Part shown: positions 32,906 through 43,537 of the stretch, piece after piece
Layout of the letters: each line of letters begins with the position of its first letter
Numbering within the stretch: position 1 is the first letter of the stretch
Assembly (NCBI RefSeq): GCF_005281475.1
Contig: NZ_CP040106.1
Location: 1,741,501 to 1,805,500 of the forward strand
Source of the DNA: Echinicola rosea
GTDB lineage: Bacteria > Bacteroidota > Bacteroidia > Cytophagales > Cyclobacteriaceae
Length of the DNA stretch: 64,000 nt
Direction: 5' to 3'
The notes under the pieces: generated by a model
Told to the model about the DNA's origin: nothing
Database searches by the model: none
Seen by the model: the letters and a program-made list of their open reading frames with translations, nothing else
Made by a program: the position numbers and the translations under genes

Positions 32906-33046
32906 ACGTGGGGTTGTTATGAAGCAAAGAGAAACACAATATGATTTTAGTAAATGACTAGCGATTACAATAATTGATAATGAAAACTAATTATAATCCG
33001 GTCAACACTAATCAGGGAAGTACACTGTGCCCTCAGTACAATGACC

Positions 33047-33071
33047 GGGTTGTGCTGGGGCTCTGCCCCAG
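33047..33071 (+). repeat. 25-bp repeat with hairpin, copy 1
   Basis: Identical 25 bp to 40029-40053; includes the hairpin ctggggctctgccccag. Upstream sequence (from aatccggtcaa at about 32996) also resembles bases near 40143, so both may be pieces of a larger rearranged repeat. Confidence 0.5.
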
Positions 33072-33212
33072 GACAGTCAAGCTTGGAGTAGGCGTGGGCG
33101 GCCTTCGACTACATAAAGGCATCCATCGCGGTAGGGATGAAAATGGGAAAATGCCGACCAGGTTCAGGACCTGACATCCAACCTTGAATCCTTTGAACCT
33201 TCCAACCTAATA

Positions 33213-35031: not shown

Positions 35032-36099
35032 ATGGAAATCAAAAAACAGCTAACATCTCAATGTTCCATCGAACAGTTTAATTTTAACCAATTTCAGTTT
35101 GGTGTGGAAGCCACCGATCACATGCTTGTGGCCAAGTACAGCGAAGGAGCGTGGCATTCGGCAGCTATTCAGCCCTATGAAAACCTGACCTTGTCTCCAT
35201 TGGCCATGTGCCTGCACTATGGCCAGACAGTTTTTGAGGGACTCAAAGCTTACCGGCAAGTGGATGATGGTGTCAGTATATTCCGGTTGGACCGCCATCA
35301 CGAGCGGATCAATCAATCCTTGCGTAGGATGGCCATGCCAGAAGTGCCCAAGGAGCTTTTTGAAAATGGAATCAAGGGATTGGTGGAGGTGGAGCAAGGT
35401 TGGATTAAGGAAGGTGAGGGAAATTCCCTTTATATCCGGCCTTTTGTCATTGCCACAGAAGAGCGATTGGGTGTAAGCATTTCCACAGATTATTTGTTTG
35501 TGGTAGTGTGTACCCCAATGGCAGCGTATTATGCAAGGCCGCTAAAGGTCAAAGTGGAAAGGTACTATACCCGTGCCACCTCAGGAGGTGTAGGAGCAGC
35601 CAAAAATGGCGGGAACTATGGCGCGGCCTATTACCCGGCAAAGCTGGCCCAGCAAGAGGGATTTGATCAGGTGATCTGGACGGACAGTCGTGACCATGAA
35701 TATGTGGAAGAATCAGGGACGATGAATTTGATGTTTATCATTGGAGATAAGTTGTTGACACCACCGGCAGGAGAAACGATTTTGGCAGGAGTAACGCGGG
35801 ACTCCTTATTGCAAATTGCGAGGGATATGGGCTGGCCAGTGGAAGAACGCCCGATCAGCTTGGTGGAGCTGCAGGAGGCTTTTGAAGCTGGGAAGAAAGT
35901 GGAGGCCTTTGGTGCCGGTACAGCTGCTGTGGTGGCTCCCTTTGCGCTCATCCATTTGGATGGAAATGATTACAAGCCCTACATTGCTGATGATGCCAAA
36001 ATGTTTCAATTAAAAGCGCAGTTAACCGCTGTGCGATCAGGGAAAGTAAAAGATCCCTATGCGTGGAATACGGTTCTGGAAAAAGTCTTGACAAAGTAA
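35032..36099 (+). CDS. ilvE: Branched-chain amino-acid aminotransferase
   Basis: 355 residues of the class IV PLP aminotransferase family. Motifs are LHYGQTVFEGLKAYR, RLDRHHERINQSLRRMAMP, GGNYGAAYYPAKLAQQEGFDQVIWTD (the Lys in PAK is the likely Schiff-base residue) and ESGTMNLMFII, followed by AFGAGTAAVVAP. The eukaryote-like BCAT subgroup is suggested by GVGAAKNGGNYGA. It transfers amino groups between branched-chain 2-keto acids and glutamate. Regulated probably by the divergent MocR-type gene. Confidence 0.93.
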   Translation: MEIKKQLTSQCSIEQFNFNQFQFGVEATDHMLVAKYSEGAWHSAAIQPYENLTLSPLAMCLHYGQTVFEGLKAYRQVDDGVSIFRLDRHHERINQSLRRMAMPEVPKELFENGIKGLVEVEQGWIKEGEGNSLYIRPFVIATEERLGVSISTDYLFVVVCTPMAAYYARPLKVKVERYYTRATSGGVGAAKNGGNYGAAYYPAKLAQQEGFDQVIWTDSRDHEYVEESGTMNLMFIIGDKLLTPPAGETILAGVTRDSLLQIARDMGWPVEERPISLVELQEAFEAGKKVEAFGAGTAAVVAPFALIHLDGNDYKPYIADDAKMFQLKAQLTAVRSGKVKDPYAWNTVLEKVLTK

Positions 36100-36104
36100 G
36101 GGGG

Positions 36105-36152
36105 AGTCCGGAAACTTTTAAGCGTCCTGGTCCAAGTCGGGAGACTTGGACC
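36105..36152 (+). repeat. 48-bp direct repeat, left copy (hairpin)
   Basis: 47 of 48 bases equal the copy at 38175-38222. Its right half is a perfect hairpin gtccaagtc-ggga-gacttggac. It lies 5 bases after the ilvE stop and could be its terminator-like structure. The two copies flank the nuclease gene. Confidence 0.9.
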
Positions 36153-36303
36153 TGAATGATTAGTCATGACGAAAAGTATGTAAGTCTCATGTGAAGTGTT
36201 TTTGGTGTTTTTAGCCTTAAATTAGTTTGTTTGATTCGGTAAAATTTATAATATTAGGTTAATTCATTTTTAAATTTTATCCTCTACCAAAATAACAGAA
36301 TAA

Positions 36304-38154
36304 ATGAAACTAGAAAAGGTTTTAGGAAACCTCAATTCATTTGAGAAAAATTCATTTTTAAAGATTGTAGATAATCTCATCTCTGGTAATCCTGCCAATA
36401 TCAAAGAAGTTGAAAAAATTCTTTCTGACAACAGGAATGACTTAAAAAGCGCAGACAATACTATTATCGTAGAGGTATTTTCACTTTTAGAAAATGAATT
36501 TAAGGAATTTGTGAAATCCGAATTTATAAATACAAGTTCCCAATTGGATATTTTAATAGATATTATCTCAAGAGAAGGAAATGCTATAATCAAACAGGAT
36601 TGGTTTTCTAGATTGTACGAGAATGAAATATCTATAATGAAAGGAAAAGTCAGGAGGTTTAAAAAAGATTTAGAAGAGGGAGTTGGAGATATATCATACT
36701 ATAGAAAAAGAGATTATAAAATATATCAAGCATGTTTACATACTAGCTATCACAATGACGAAGAAAATAATTTAGAAAAGAAAATTACCACAGACGAACA
36801 ATCTATCCTTCTAACTTTGTCAAATAATCTCGGGCTATCTCAAGAAGAGATAAAACTGATTAATTACCTGATATTGCCAATTCAAAAACTTGAAGTGGAA
36901 TCGGTTATTAATGATTTAAAATCAATAGGTGTAATTTTTTATTCAAAAAAGTCCAATACTATATACGTTGCTGATGAGATTGCAAGGATTTTACGTAAAA
37001 TAAGGGGGAAAGAAGTTTCAGCGAAATTTTATAGAAGGGTATTACTTTGCCTCAGGGAACCGCTTATTAACCTAATATGTAGGAGTCATGGAATTGATTG
37101 GAAAAAGCCATTGGATCAAAAAATTAAAAGTATAATTAGTGAGGGGATCTCGTTTAAAGGGATATTGTCAGAAGACATATTTAAAGAGGATACAACGTTA
37201 ACCGAAAAAAAGAAATTTTTTAATGATCTGGTTGAGAAAAAGCTCAAAATTAGTTCCACAATTAGGGGGTCAGTTTTGGAAGAGAAAATACAGAACCTGA
37301 TAAATTATTTTGAGGAGGTAGAGAGAGATGAGAAAGTTGGGATATCTATCGATGGATATGAAAAATTAGTATCTGATTTATCAACCTTATTACCTCAATT
37401 TGAAAGTCAAATAGCACACGAATATCAATTTCAAGATGGTACCCTTCTCACTAGCGAATTTTTGCTTGATTTTAACATTAAGCCTAGAGATATTCTAGAA
37501 ATAATTAAGCAAGAGGACTTGTTGAAGTTTTGTGAGCATACTGGAGTAAAGACAAGAGGTGATGTTGTGTTGAACATTTTGGAGGCATATAAAGATTCTG
37601 ATAATTTGTACTTGGAAAATTATGAAAATATTGGACTTAGAAACCTTAATTTATTAAAGGAAAATGGAATAGTTATTAAAGAGGCGGAAGTAGGGCTTAA
37701 GTTTGAAGAACTGACTAAAGTTATTTTTGAAAAATTAAGTTTTAGTGTCAATGAGGAATTAAGAAAAAAACTAAACACTAGCAAAGACAAAGCGGATATT
37801 ATCCTAGATATGGGTAAGAATGAAATCATCATTGTAGAGTGTAAATCAGTTAAAGAGAGTGGGTATAATAAATTTAGTTCAGTATCAAGGCAATTAAAAT
37901 CATATGCAAAGCAAGCAGAGTTGAATGGTTTTAAAGTGATCAAATCTTTATTGATAAGCCCAGATTTTTCAGATGAATTTATTAAAGAATGTGGCTTAGA
38001 ATATGAGTTGAACCTATCATTAATAAAGGCATCATCTTTATTGAAAATTATGGAGGGTTATAAGGATTCAAAACATAAAAAATTTCCGCATAACTTACTA
38101 ATGAGAGATGTTTTGATACTGGAGGATAGGGTGCTTAAGGCAATTGGTAAGTAA
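36304..38154 (+). CDS. PD-(D/E)XK nuclease-like protein with SAP-like region; candidate defence gene
   Basis: 616 residues, AT-rich and visibly different from neighbouring genes in base and codon use (many AAA, ATA and TTA codons). A mainly helical N-terminal part of about 400 residues is of no family I recognise. At about 405-430, ILEIIKQEDLLKFCEHTGVKTRGDVVLNILEAY resembles a SAP-type DNA-binding helix pair. The C-terminus from about 470 has an Mrr-like nuclease pattern: KFEELTKVIF, D498 in KADIIL, then E512-C-K514 in IIIVECKS, i.e. D-x13-E-x-K. A restriction-endonuclease fold is likely. No methyltransferase is adjacent, so this is not a standard restriction-modification system. A 48-bp direct repeat lies on each side, suggesting insertion as a cassette. 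Confidence 0.75.
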   Translation: MKLEKVLGNLNSFEKNSFLKIVDNLISGNPANIKEVEKILSDNRNDLKSADNTIIVEVFSLLENEFKEFVKSEFINTSSQLDILIDIISREGNAIIKQDWFSRLYENEISIMKGKVRRFKKDLEEGVGDISYYRKRDYKIYQACLHTSYHNDEENNLEKKITTDEQSILLTLSNNLGLSQEEIKLINYLILPIQKLEVESVINDLKSIGVIFYSKKSNTIYVADEIARILRKIRGKEVSAKFYRRVLLCLREPLINLICRSHGIDWKKPLDQKIKSIISEGISFKGILSEDIFKEDTTLTEKKKFFNDLVEKKLKISSTIRGSVLEEKIQNLINYFEEVERDEKVGISIDGYEKLVSDLSTLLPQFESQIAHEYQFQDGTLLTSEFLLDFNIKPRDILEIIKQEDLLKFCEHTGVKTRGDVVLNILEAYKDSDNLYLENYENIGLRNLNLLKENGIVIKEAEVGLKFEELTKVIFEKLSFSVNEELRKKLNTSKDKADIILDMGKNEIIIVECKSVKESGYNKFSSVSRQLKSYAKQAELNGFKVIKSLLISPDFSDEFIKECGLEYELNLSLIKASSLLKIMEGYKDSKHKKFPHNLLMRDVLILEDRVLKAIGK

Positions 38155-38174
38155 AAGGTTTATTCGATAGGCAA

Positions 38175-38222
38175 AGTCCGGAGACTTTTAAGCGTCCTGG
38201 TCCAAGTCGGGAGACTTGGACC
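38175..38222 (+). repeat. 48-bp direct repeat, right copy (hairpin)
   Basis: One mismatch to 36105-36152. With the left copy it brackets the nuclease gene; a recombination between them would remove the gene cleanly and leave one repeat. Confidence 0.9.
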
Positions 38223-38229
38223 AGGGGCT

Positions 38230-38357
38230 CAATCATACAATCTTCCAATCATACAATCTTCCAATCATACAATCTTCCAATCATACAATCTTCCAATCAT
38301 ACAATCTTCCAATCATACAATCTTCCAATCATACAATCTTCCAATCTTTCAATCTTC
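38230..38357 (+). repeat. 16-bp tandem repeat, eight units
   Basis: Unit caatcatacaatcttc repeated seven times perfectly (38230-38341) and once in a changed form (38342-38357). The last unit includes the stop codon (38349-38351) and last codons of the minus-strand SGNH gene. Not a CRISPR array: no spacers. Confidence 0.95.
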
Positions 38358-39851
38358 CACCAAATACTCCTTCAAGTCACAATCCTCCAGTCCTTGGATG
38401 CCCTTGACCACAGCTTTCGCATTGTATTTGGCACCGTCGAGGATGGTGTGGGTGTGGTCAGTGTCATTGAAGAAATGGGCTTTGACATAGTCCTCACCGA
38501 GTTCGTCATAGCCATCGGCGATGATGTTGTTCAGGTCGATAAAGCAAGCCTTTCTGGCTTCTGCGGCCTGTTTTGCCCATAAGCCATAGCTGTCATTGGC
38601 ACGATTTACCTTGCCCTCTTTCCAGTTGTTTCTTGGGATCAGCGAACAGACGATCGGTGTGGCTCCGGCGGCTTTGGTGGCCGTGACCATCTGCTTGAGG
38701 TACTGGCCATAGCTATAGACTGTTTCATATTGCTCGGTGATGGGATTATAGATTTCTTCTGCTTCCGTGCCGGCACTTCTGATGGTGCCGCGTGCGCGGT
38801 GGCTATCGTCCAGCGGACTGCTATCATTATGGCCAAACTGCATGATGACATAGTCTCCCGGTTCGAGTTGTTCACGGACTTTTTCCCACAGGCCATACGT
38901 TTGGTAGGTCCGACTACTGGTCCCGCCCAGCGCATGATTTTGTACTTTTATCCTGTCCAGGTCAAAATAAGGAGCCATATAATCGCCCCAGCCCCAAAGT
39001 CCTCCAGCACCATCGCCTTGGCCATTTTTGACAGTAGAGTCACCGATAAGGTAGAGCGTGGGCTTGTCCTTGGAGAGATAGGCTTTTAGTTTGCAATCTT
39101 CCAGTGATTTGATGCCCTGCACTACAGACCAAGCATTGATGCGTGCACCTGCTTCATTGGTGTGGGTGTGGTCTTTCTCGAAGAGTGAAGGTACCACGTG
39201 GGGACCCCATTGGTCGTATTGGTCAGCCACGATGCTGTTAAGATCCACGAAATAGGCTCCGGTTTTGCGGGCGACTTCCTTGGCCCACTTTCCATAATCT
39301 TGGTTGGCACGCTCCACTTCGCCGTCTTGGAATTTATTTCTGGGGATCATCGAACAGATGATGGGAGTGGCTCCTTTTTCCTTGGCTTCGGTGACAAATT
39401 TTTTCAGGTACCAGCCATAGGTATGGACTGTTTCTTCGGTGCCGTCAGGCCACGTCAGCTCGACGGTTTCATCACCAGTGCCACGAAGTACTCCCCTGTA
39501 GCCAGCCCTTGTCGTATCAGGCTTGCTGCCTTCATTATGGCCAAATTGCATCATGACAAAATCCCCTGGCTTAAGGTCGTCCAGTACCCGCTGCCACCGA
39601 CCTTCCTTGACAAAGGTCCGCGTGCTTCTGCCGGCCATGGCCTGATTGCTTACCTCCAGTTTGGTACTGTCAAAGAAATCGTCGATAAACGTTCCCCAGC
39701 CCCATTGCCCCGGTCCACCATCGCCACGGCTATTGCGAACAGTGCTGTCTCCGATGATGTAGAGGGTGTGTTTTTCCTCTTTGGGCGTAAAGGCCATCAG
39801 TAAGGTGATCAATGCGATGATCGCTGAAAGCCCATATTTTACGTTTTTCAT
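38349..39851 (-). CDS. Tandem SGNH esterase, rhamnogalacturonan acetylesterase-like
   Basis: 500 residues with a signal peptide (MKNVKYGLSAIIALITLLMAF). Two homologous SGNH/CE12 domains lie end to end, about 28-262 and 263-500. Each has the block I GDST (YIIGDSTVRN and YLIGDSTVKN), the block III GHN (MQFGHNEG and MQFGHNDS) and the block V DHTH (KDHTHTNEAG and TDHTHTILDG), so Ser, Gly, Asn and His are intact in both. Such enzymes remove acetyl groups from rhamnogalacturonan I. The duplication in one chain is unusual. It sits in the pectin region, next to a GH105 gene. Confidence 0.9.
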   Translation of the reverse strand: MKNVKYGLSAIIALITLLMAFTPKEEKHTLYIIGDSTVRNSRGDGGPGQWGWGTFIDDFFDSTKLEVSNQAMAGRSTRTFVKEGRWQRVLDDLKPGDFVMMQFGHNEGSKPDTTRAGYRGVLRGTGDETVELTWPDGTEETVHTYGWYLKKFVTEAKEKGATPIICSMIPRNKFQDGEVERANQDYGKWAKEVARKTGAYFVDLNSIVADQYDQWGPHVVPSLFEKDHTHTNEAGARINAWSVVQGIKSLEDCKLKAYLSKDKPTLYLIGDSTVKNGQGDGAGGLWGWGDYMAPYFDLDRIKVQNHALGGTSSRTYQTYGLWEKVREQLEPGDYVIMQFGHNDSSPLDDSHRARGTIRSAGTEAEEIYNPITEQYETVYSYGQYLKQMVTATKAAGATPIVCSLIPRNNWKEGKVNRANDSYGLWAKQAAEARKACFIDLNNIIADGYDELGEDYVKAHFFNDTDHTHTILDGAKYNAKAVVKGIQGLEDCDLKEYLVED

Positions 39852-40028
39852 GGTTATGATATCATTTGATTTGGGTTTGTACTATTGGCTGGTCGATGTA
39901 GCCAAAAGATAAATCTATATAATTGGAAACAAAATCCCGTGCTGTAGTATGTGGTTGGTTTGGGGAGGGGTTAGAAGTGAGTAGTGAGACTTGTGTCATG
40001 GGCATTGAGTTGTGAGGTACCGTACACA

Positions 40029-40053
40029 GGGTTGTGCTGGGGCTCTGCCCCAG
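40029..40053 (+). repeat. 25-bp repeat with hairpin, copy 2
   Basis: Exactly equals 33047-33071. The surrounding 39852-40355 region has no gene. It also holds a TGAGA/GTGAG-rich low-complexity stretch (39968-40000) similar to ones at 32850-32878 and 34805-34850. Confidence 0.5.
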
Positions 40054-40267
40054 CAATGGCAAGCTTTGAGTCTCTGACTCAATTAAGCTGTTCCAGATTT
40101 GTACCCCCCCAGTTATTACCCTATATAATAATGAAAACGAAATATTAATCCGGTCAATCCCATTCAAGGAAGCACAATCACGGATGCGCCGTTGACCTGC
40201 ACATAGCCCATGACATGATCACTTTATGCCCAAGCCAAAGCAAAGGTTTGCATAGCCGTATCCCTAC

Positions 40268-43194: not shown

Positions 43195-43220
43195 GTATCC
43201 GAATAGTCTTACGACAACGC

Positions 43221-43404
43221 TTAAACCCGGAATATGCATTAGCCTATCTGTTGCGACCTGATCCGCCGCGGCGGACAAAATCAGTTGCTTCGCTGCTGTT
43301 TTCGATTTCACCATCCGCCGCGGCGGATGATTCAATCTCCAAACAACCTGATTTTCTTGTAGTTTCAGCTCTCATAACGATTCCTAATGCATAAAGCGGG
43401 TTAA
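43221..43404. repeat. MITE-B copy 2
   Basis: Bounded by TTAA on both sides; ends aaacccgg...atgcattag and ctaatgcataaagcggg are inverted. Differs from copy 1 by two blocks where ccgccgcggcgg replaces unrelated bases (43260 and 43316 regions). No transposase ORF. Confidence 0.8.
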
Positions 43405-43537
43405 ATGACGGGTAAGGCGGTAGTGTATTTTGGACGAAATCAAGGCAAAAAAGAAACGAGCGTAGCAAAGGAAGTCTTTTTGCAACTTAATAGATAGGTC
43501 AAAAGACAAACCGGATTATGCATAGGGTAGGTTTGAA

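Follow-up and report, generated by a model that had tools for sequence, protein, structure and literature searches.

What is a gene of 0.30 GC doing between two near-identical hairpin repeats, in a setting of 45–50% GC? The window, a stretch of 64,000 nucleotides from Echinicola rosea, carries at 36304..38154 (plus strand) an open reading frame of 616 aa that we describe here as a PD-(D/E)XK nuclease gene; its family has no significant library match, and the domain matches come from relatives. A sequence-only reading had noticed this frame as the one gene between two direct repeats, rich in A and T, without an adjacent methyltransferase, and had proposed a phage or plasmid restriction module inserted by recombination at the repeat. 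The descriptive part of that reading held up. The repeats (36105..36152 and 38175..38222) are identical at 47 of 48 bases, and both copies contain the hairpin gtccaagtc/gacttggac, at 36130..36151 and 38200..38221. GC is 0.31 at 36–38 kb of the window, against 0.49 just before and 0.46 just after; gene by gene, it is 0.45 upstream and 0.50 downstream of the nuclease gene.

The upstream neighbour (35032..36099, plus strand) is a class IV aminotransferase (PF01063), ilvE-like by reading, with a relative at E ≤ 1e-100 in all 11 genomes of the genus, the window's own included. Downstream, a GDSL-lipase-like gene (38349..39851, minus strand; PF13472) is convergent to the nuclease gene. Neither a methyltransferase nor a cas gene was found among the six neighbouring open reading frames scanned, and no tRNA that might serve as an attachment site was found in the window.

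The C-terminal nuclease domain

The evidence for a nuclease lies in residues 455–616 (37666..38151, plus strand). In an alignment of 65 proteins (the window protein and 64 relatives), E468, D498, E512, K514, K523, Q530 and Y534 never vary. The D498...E512-x-K514 pattern reported earlier is thus present in 65/65 proteins, and together with E468 as the preceding acidic residue it gives the PD-(D/E)XK core arrangement, D-(x~13)-E-x-K, in every one of them. Searches with isolated C-terminal domains returned, at E ≤ 1, Mrr_cat in 18/24 (best 4.3e-6), HSDR_N_2 in 13, NucS_C in 9 and Card1_endonuc in 7/24 (best 4.5e-6), and Mrr_cat also matched 15/65 full-length members at E ≤ 0.01. For the window protein itself no Mrr_cat match was listed up to E = 10; its C-terminal domain matched PDDEXK_3 at 0.0034, short of the cut-off. 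Relatives also gave weak NucS and Cas4-like matches. A sequence search of the PDB with the full and the C-terminal alignments gave nothing significant, the best matches being nephrocystin-1 (0.21) and a 'DUF1887 family protein' (1.1), the latter Card1-like. PD-(D/E)XK is, as a fold class, a well-supported prediction for the C-terminus; the sub-family may be of the Mrr/Card1 kind, and the enzyme probably cuts DNA.

The N-terminal part

As the earlier reading had indicated, the ~450 residues before this domain match nothing above the cut-off. A profile search with the whole window protein likewise gave no family above the cut-off. Similarity to TerB, a domain of stress systems, appeared in a weak, helical region at residues 78–187 (36535..36864, plus strand). 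Using a TerB alignment drawn from 21 loci in related genomes, hhalign paired TerB with residues 158–187 at 57% probability for the full alignment of the nuclease family and at 83–88% for three sub-regions holding that stretch; a forced global alignment covered residues 78–187 at 54%. Three sub-regions elsewhere gave ≤1.5%, and controls (the TerB alignment reversed, plus 60 shuffles of its columns per query, with two queries) ≤1.7%. TerB was absent from the 25 of 99 Pfam families listed for the 65 members at E ≤ 10. TerB models also matched open frames of ~1,000–1,080 aa in many related genomes (L093, L094, L096, L098 and others).

A SAP-like stretch had also been suggested ahead of the nuclease domain. 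Placed by eye at residues 403–430 (37510..37593, plus strand), it agrees with SAP_new25 matches in 6/65 members, and to that extent the suggestion stands; the matches are weak, the best at E 0.049. The TerB-like and SAP-like similarities are leads, not assignments. The N-terminus also matched TraH of Pfam (E 0.00049, short of the cut-off, in 1–2 of 65 members), which was taken as chance helical similarity. The window protein had one CARF-type PADLOC match, at E = 0.03 over residues 6–89, and CARF_PDDEXK-type PADLOC models matched 2/65 members, best 7.4e-5. No CARF domain was found before the nuclease in Pfam up to E = 10, by a type of profile search that can miss a distant CARF.

Family size, distribution and phylogeny

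The family is large: when 5.8 billion proteins were searched and 7,997 candidates scored, 2,915 protein clusters, from genomes and metagenomes, matched; the best 120 of these are 608–642 aa long, 61–84% identical (the query apart) and free of precomputed Pfam domains. P0002, a protein named from Echinicola strongylocentroti, shares 84% identity with the window protein, and source names among the matches are mostly 'hypothetical protein'. When the search was repeated from a homologue in Pseudoalteromonas, which shares 32% identity with the window protein, 375 of 7,999 scored candidates matched, and the two match lists were kept separate. The best 120 of the 375 include Pseudoalteromonas, Psychromonas, Colwellia, Shewanella and Agarivorans, mostly at 613–615 aa; marine Gammaproteobacteria have a ~32%-identical branch of 614 aa. 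Several of these listed matches carry a precomputed PF09254, a FokI C-terminal model. The family had no significant match in the Pfam, NCBIfam and PADLOC libraries used: PADLOC-DB 2.0.0 gave no family for the window protein at E ≤ 0.01, and relatives gave scattered weak Cas4 and CARF_PDDEXK matches. Nor did we find the family described in the titles and abstract openings searched, although it could still be in print.

The gene is patchily distributed. Its own genome counted, it occurs in 2/11 genomes of the genus (a comparison that bears out the presence-or-absence between congeners expected from the earlier reading), in 15/196 of the family (two as fragments), in 12/390 of an order sample (one a fragment at a contig edge) and in 11/395 of a class sample; a profile search of the phylum sample found 2/395, both in its own family. 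These genome samples overlap. A scan of genome contigs with the window protein alone, by short exact peptides, found only two relatives, and E. coli genomes gave no DNA match, a test of little weight given the protein's distance. In another genus, the gene lies directly after dnaK in 3 of 10 genomes, and there is none within 1,500 bp of that place in the other 7. Its GC is below that of both flanks in 23/28 loci, the exceptions being L005, L011, L014, L041 and L044.

On a tree of 32 rows, built without the prophage row L125, families are intermixed: the own-family label has to change 7 times, starred branches forcing 5 of the changes. The label is still clustered, only 8 of 500 shuffles being as low. 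The two copies from Echinicola form a fully supported sister pair, and a single acquisition in their common ancestor is therefore the simplest history. On sequence evidence, the gene spreads horizontally between bacteria.

Plasmid and prophage carriage

The gene is occasionally carried by large plasmids and by some prophages, a result in line with the earlier reading. Three of 72,556 plasmid records have it. Its neighbours were read on three large Pseudoalteromonas plasmids. An HNH endonuclease precedes the nuclease in two; the genes that follow it are SIR2, ATP-binding and SLATT genes in one, metallophosphoesterase and EutP-family genes in another and a histone deacetylase gene in the third. 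None of 50,697 phage records matched the window protein or the N-terminal part of the Pseudoalteromonas homologue, and a scan of viral contigs with the window protein alone gave no match.

Four IMG/VR contigs carry the gene. In one, L125, it is clearly internal to a Mu-like prophage, between a virion-morphogenesis protein (42%) and a head protease (53%). Homologues of these flanking genes stand 243 bp apart in Vibrio phage ZX4290. The same slot holds a two-helix protein, a regulator, a reverse transcriptase and two small open reading frames in Shewanella phage MuM16-1 (MZ568827.1 18697-21970, L127), and an SGNH hydrolase among small genes in Pseudoalteromonas phage HS6. In L123 the nuclease lies between a head-protease-like gene, with partial phage matches, and a large gene that is primase-helicase-like by eye. 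There, at L123:4091-5814, two open reading frames, one of 230 aa and membrane-protein-like, the other of 341 aa and metallo-beta-lactamase-like (both by eye), stand ahead of the nuclease; they share its strand, which is opposite to that of the prophage-like genes. In L124 and L126 it stands at a contig or prophage edge beside P2-type tail genes, and this position leaves its membership of a prophage there unsure.

Neighbours and ends

Had the gene a fixed partner or fixed ends, these should recur between loci. We clustered the 207 mechanically called open reading frames within four of the gene in 27 loci and found no conserved operon partner: no neighbour family is common to more than 4/27 loci, consistent with the single-gene unit first proposed. 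The clusters that reach beyond close kin are a four-member set in which two of the four were identified as ABC ATPases; a three-member set of 941–1136 aa, comprising two same-genus loci and the window's +4 gene; a sigma-factor-like pair (L035/L081); a pair L070/L081; and an Ion_trans pair. Among these common neighbours only the Ion_trans gene is directly adjacent, 7–8 bp downstream in two families and 53% identical between them; these cation-channel-like genes (L058:10475-11263 and L078:8218-8973) could mark a two-gene version. The 350-bp flanks of loci from different families share no similarity, the coding ion-channel neighbour excepted, so that they lack the conserved ends of a transposon or integron cassette, and an attC-like pattern occurs in one locus only.

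Among 121 neighbours in 22 loci, the commonest Pfam families are transporters and other non-defence types (25 of 141 families listed). At E ≤ 1e-10, PADLOC matched PDC-S66, ThsB, PD-T4-2_B, PDC-M66A and PDC-M66B in one protein each, with loci pooled and no background rate set beside them; it also matched subtilase and generic ATPase models. The commonest PADLOC matches of these neighbours were mad3, AriA and mad8; two of the proteins were checked, and both turned out to be generic ABC ATPases.

A candidate defence nuclease

The nuclease is conserved and has spread horizontally, it fills a cargo slot in a Mu-like prophage, and its neighbours in Pseudoalteromonas are of defence type; a role in defence explains this best, and a gene that sometimes rides in dormant viruses and spreads between bacteria suggests protection against other viruses. 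We consider it probable that the gene encodes a defence nuclease that forms a single-gene system, moves horizontally and has chromosomes, large plasmids and some prophages as carriers of this cargo. Its N-terminal helical part, with the TerB-like and SAP-like stretches, would recognise a sign of invading phage or plasmid DNA; recognition would unleash the C-terminal PD-(D/E)XK domain to cut DNA, which would destroy the invader or kill the infected cell. The defence role, the trigger and the DNA target are what we infer. We counted in favour of defence the patchy, horizontal distribution, the low GC, the invariance of the catalytic motif, the lack of a partner and the one clear prophage cargo position. 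Counted against it were the 0/50,697 phage records and 3/72,556 plasmids, the mostly non-defence neighbour families, and a protein more conserved than we had expected of a fast-evolving defence gene.

A more specific proposal is offered tentatively. The family might be a widespread immune system, absent from the catalogues, of Bacteroidota and marine Gammaproteobacteria; it would consist of one protein, a PD-(D/E)XK effector fused to a TerB-like/SAP-like sensor. It would move as a bare gene, with neither fixed ends nor a fixed partner, and at times leave behind a duplicate of the upstream gene's terminator. If it is a one-gene immune system, it would be a sizeable and easily tested gap in defence catalogues (~2,900 clusters of near-constant length) and would show how solitary defence genes travel without a visible mobility module.

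Among known systems, the type IV restriction endonucleases of the Mrr/Mrr_cat kind (PF04471) are similar in having a C-terminal PD-(D/E)XK domain with the same core motif, encoded by a single gene with no methyltransferase in the six scanned neighbours. Unlike them, the family matches Mrr weakly, the window protein itself does not, and its ~450-aa N-terminal part has no family match above the cut-off. The CARF-nuclease effectors Card1 and Can2 (PF09002) likewise resemble it in their endonuclease domain, matched up to 4.5e-6 in relatives, and in an N-terminal part that could sense; they differ in that the window protein has no significant CARF match and the six scanned neighbours include no cas gene. 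TerB-domain proteins (PF05099) share a profile similarity over ~30 residues and, in forced global register, residues 78–187, yet TerB is missing from the Pfam families listed at E ≤ 10 (25 of 99, 65 members). According to PMC9122126, P2-like phages and P4-like satellites have slots of ~1–5 kb, set between conserved genes, that serve as anti-phage reservoirs. The prophage position described above resembles that hotspot cargo in being a small slot between conserved phage genes with alternative fillings, including a reverse transcriptase in a related phage. It differs from those hotspots in that the slot is Mu-like, possibly with a P2-like edge, and in that the nuclease has no significant match in PADLOC-DB 2.0.0.

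The rival with most in its favour is a nuclease of stress response or DNA repair that would process damaged host DNA and spread horizontally through a benefit under genotoxic stress, not through anti-phage action. High conservation and near-constant length, the weak matches to NucS and Cas4-like models, the presence of housekeeping genes (dnaK and ilvE, for instance) next to it and the weak TerB-like region all agree with such a role; genus-level patchiness, the prophage cargo slot and the defence-type neighbours in Pseudoalteromonas do not, and we regard it as unlikely.

History of the Echinicola site

If the gene is a mobile defence nuclease, how did it come to lie between two hairpins? The first 28 bases of the 48-bp element (≤3 mismatches) occur at only two places in the 6.06-Mb genome, and its hairpin core is dispersed over 11 distinct places at ≤3 mismatches (8 matches per strand; 0 for the reversed control). 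The congener G010, which has no nuclease gene, carries in order ilvE, a hairpin element, a sigma factor, a small open reading frame, a second clpP, another hairpin and the GDSL gene. The window's left repeat (36105..36152, unstranded), a terminator-like hairpin downstream of ilvE, aligns with the first of these hairpins, ilvE flank included, and is homologous to that post-ilvE element. The right repeat (38175..38222, unstranded) aligns with the second together with its own flank, which is homologous to the clpP–GDSL gap of G010. The core of the right copy scores 64 against the ilvE hairpin of G010 and 52 against the counterpart at its own position, which makes recombination or conversion between the window copies probable. 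The flanking hairpins look like older resident elements, not ends of the nuclease gene.

The second clpP is present in 6/11 genomes of the genus and missing from the window genome, so the nuclease stands where G007, G009 and G010 have sigma factor–orf–clpP. That operon, which follows ilvE in those three genomes, is missing at window positions 36100–38230. In the sister species G009 a different repeat, of 57 bp, brackets the nuclease, which has clpP on one side and the GDSL gene on the other; in G176 the bracketing repeat is 72 bp long and reaches into the end of dnaK. The 48-, 57- and 72-bp repeats are three different sequences, all terminator-like.

Bracketing repeats thus occur in 3/27 loci, compared with 1/139 control open reading frames of the same loci (Fisher p = 0.014) and with 0/27 control frames in the two Echinicola loci; L123 has a weaker, 34-bp repeat below the threshold. 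The excess around the nuclease is modest, and two of the three loci belong to sister species. It may reflect terminators duplicated on insertion, or hairpins at both ends homogenised later. A selfish single-gene mobile element, whose nuclease would cut at or near the 3′ ends of genes, promote its own spread and duplicate terminator sequence on both sides, would account for this excess, for the 34-bp repeat and for the lack of conserved ends and partner. We think it improbable, since 24/27 loci have no repeats, two of the three that do are from sister species, a congener that lacks the gene has counterparts of both window hairpins, and no common target or end sequence was found.

Insertion of a cassette by homologous recombination between two 48-bp repeats that belong to the mobile unit, as the sequence-only reading had pictured it, accords with the 47/48 identity around the gene and with right and left copies that have probably recombined or been converted, and is nonetheless very improbable, as G010 has both hairpins around sigma–orf–clpP with no nuclease between them, in G009 the gene precedes that GDSL gene too but is flanked by another repeat, and the element's first 28 bases occur nowhere else in the genome.

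Other repeats were noted nearby. A dispersed repeat of ~185 bp lies at window positions 43220–43405, with congener copies at L035 9460–9634 and 13499–13674 and at L040 7142–7337; one copy adjoins the nuclease in G009. A 46-bp near-repeat with a CTGGGGCTCTGCCCCAG palindrome occurs at 33044–33089 and 40026–40071 (87% identical), with similar sequence in congener locus L037. Just past the right hairpin, at 38230–38350, stand tandem 16-bp units (caatcatacaatcttc).
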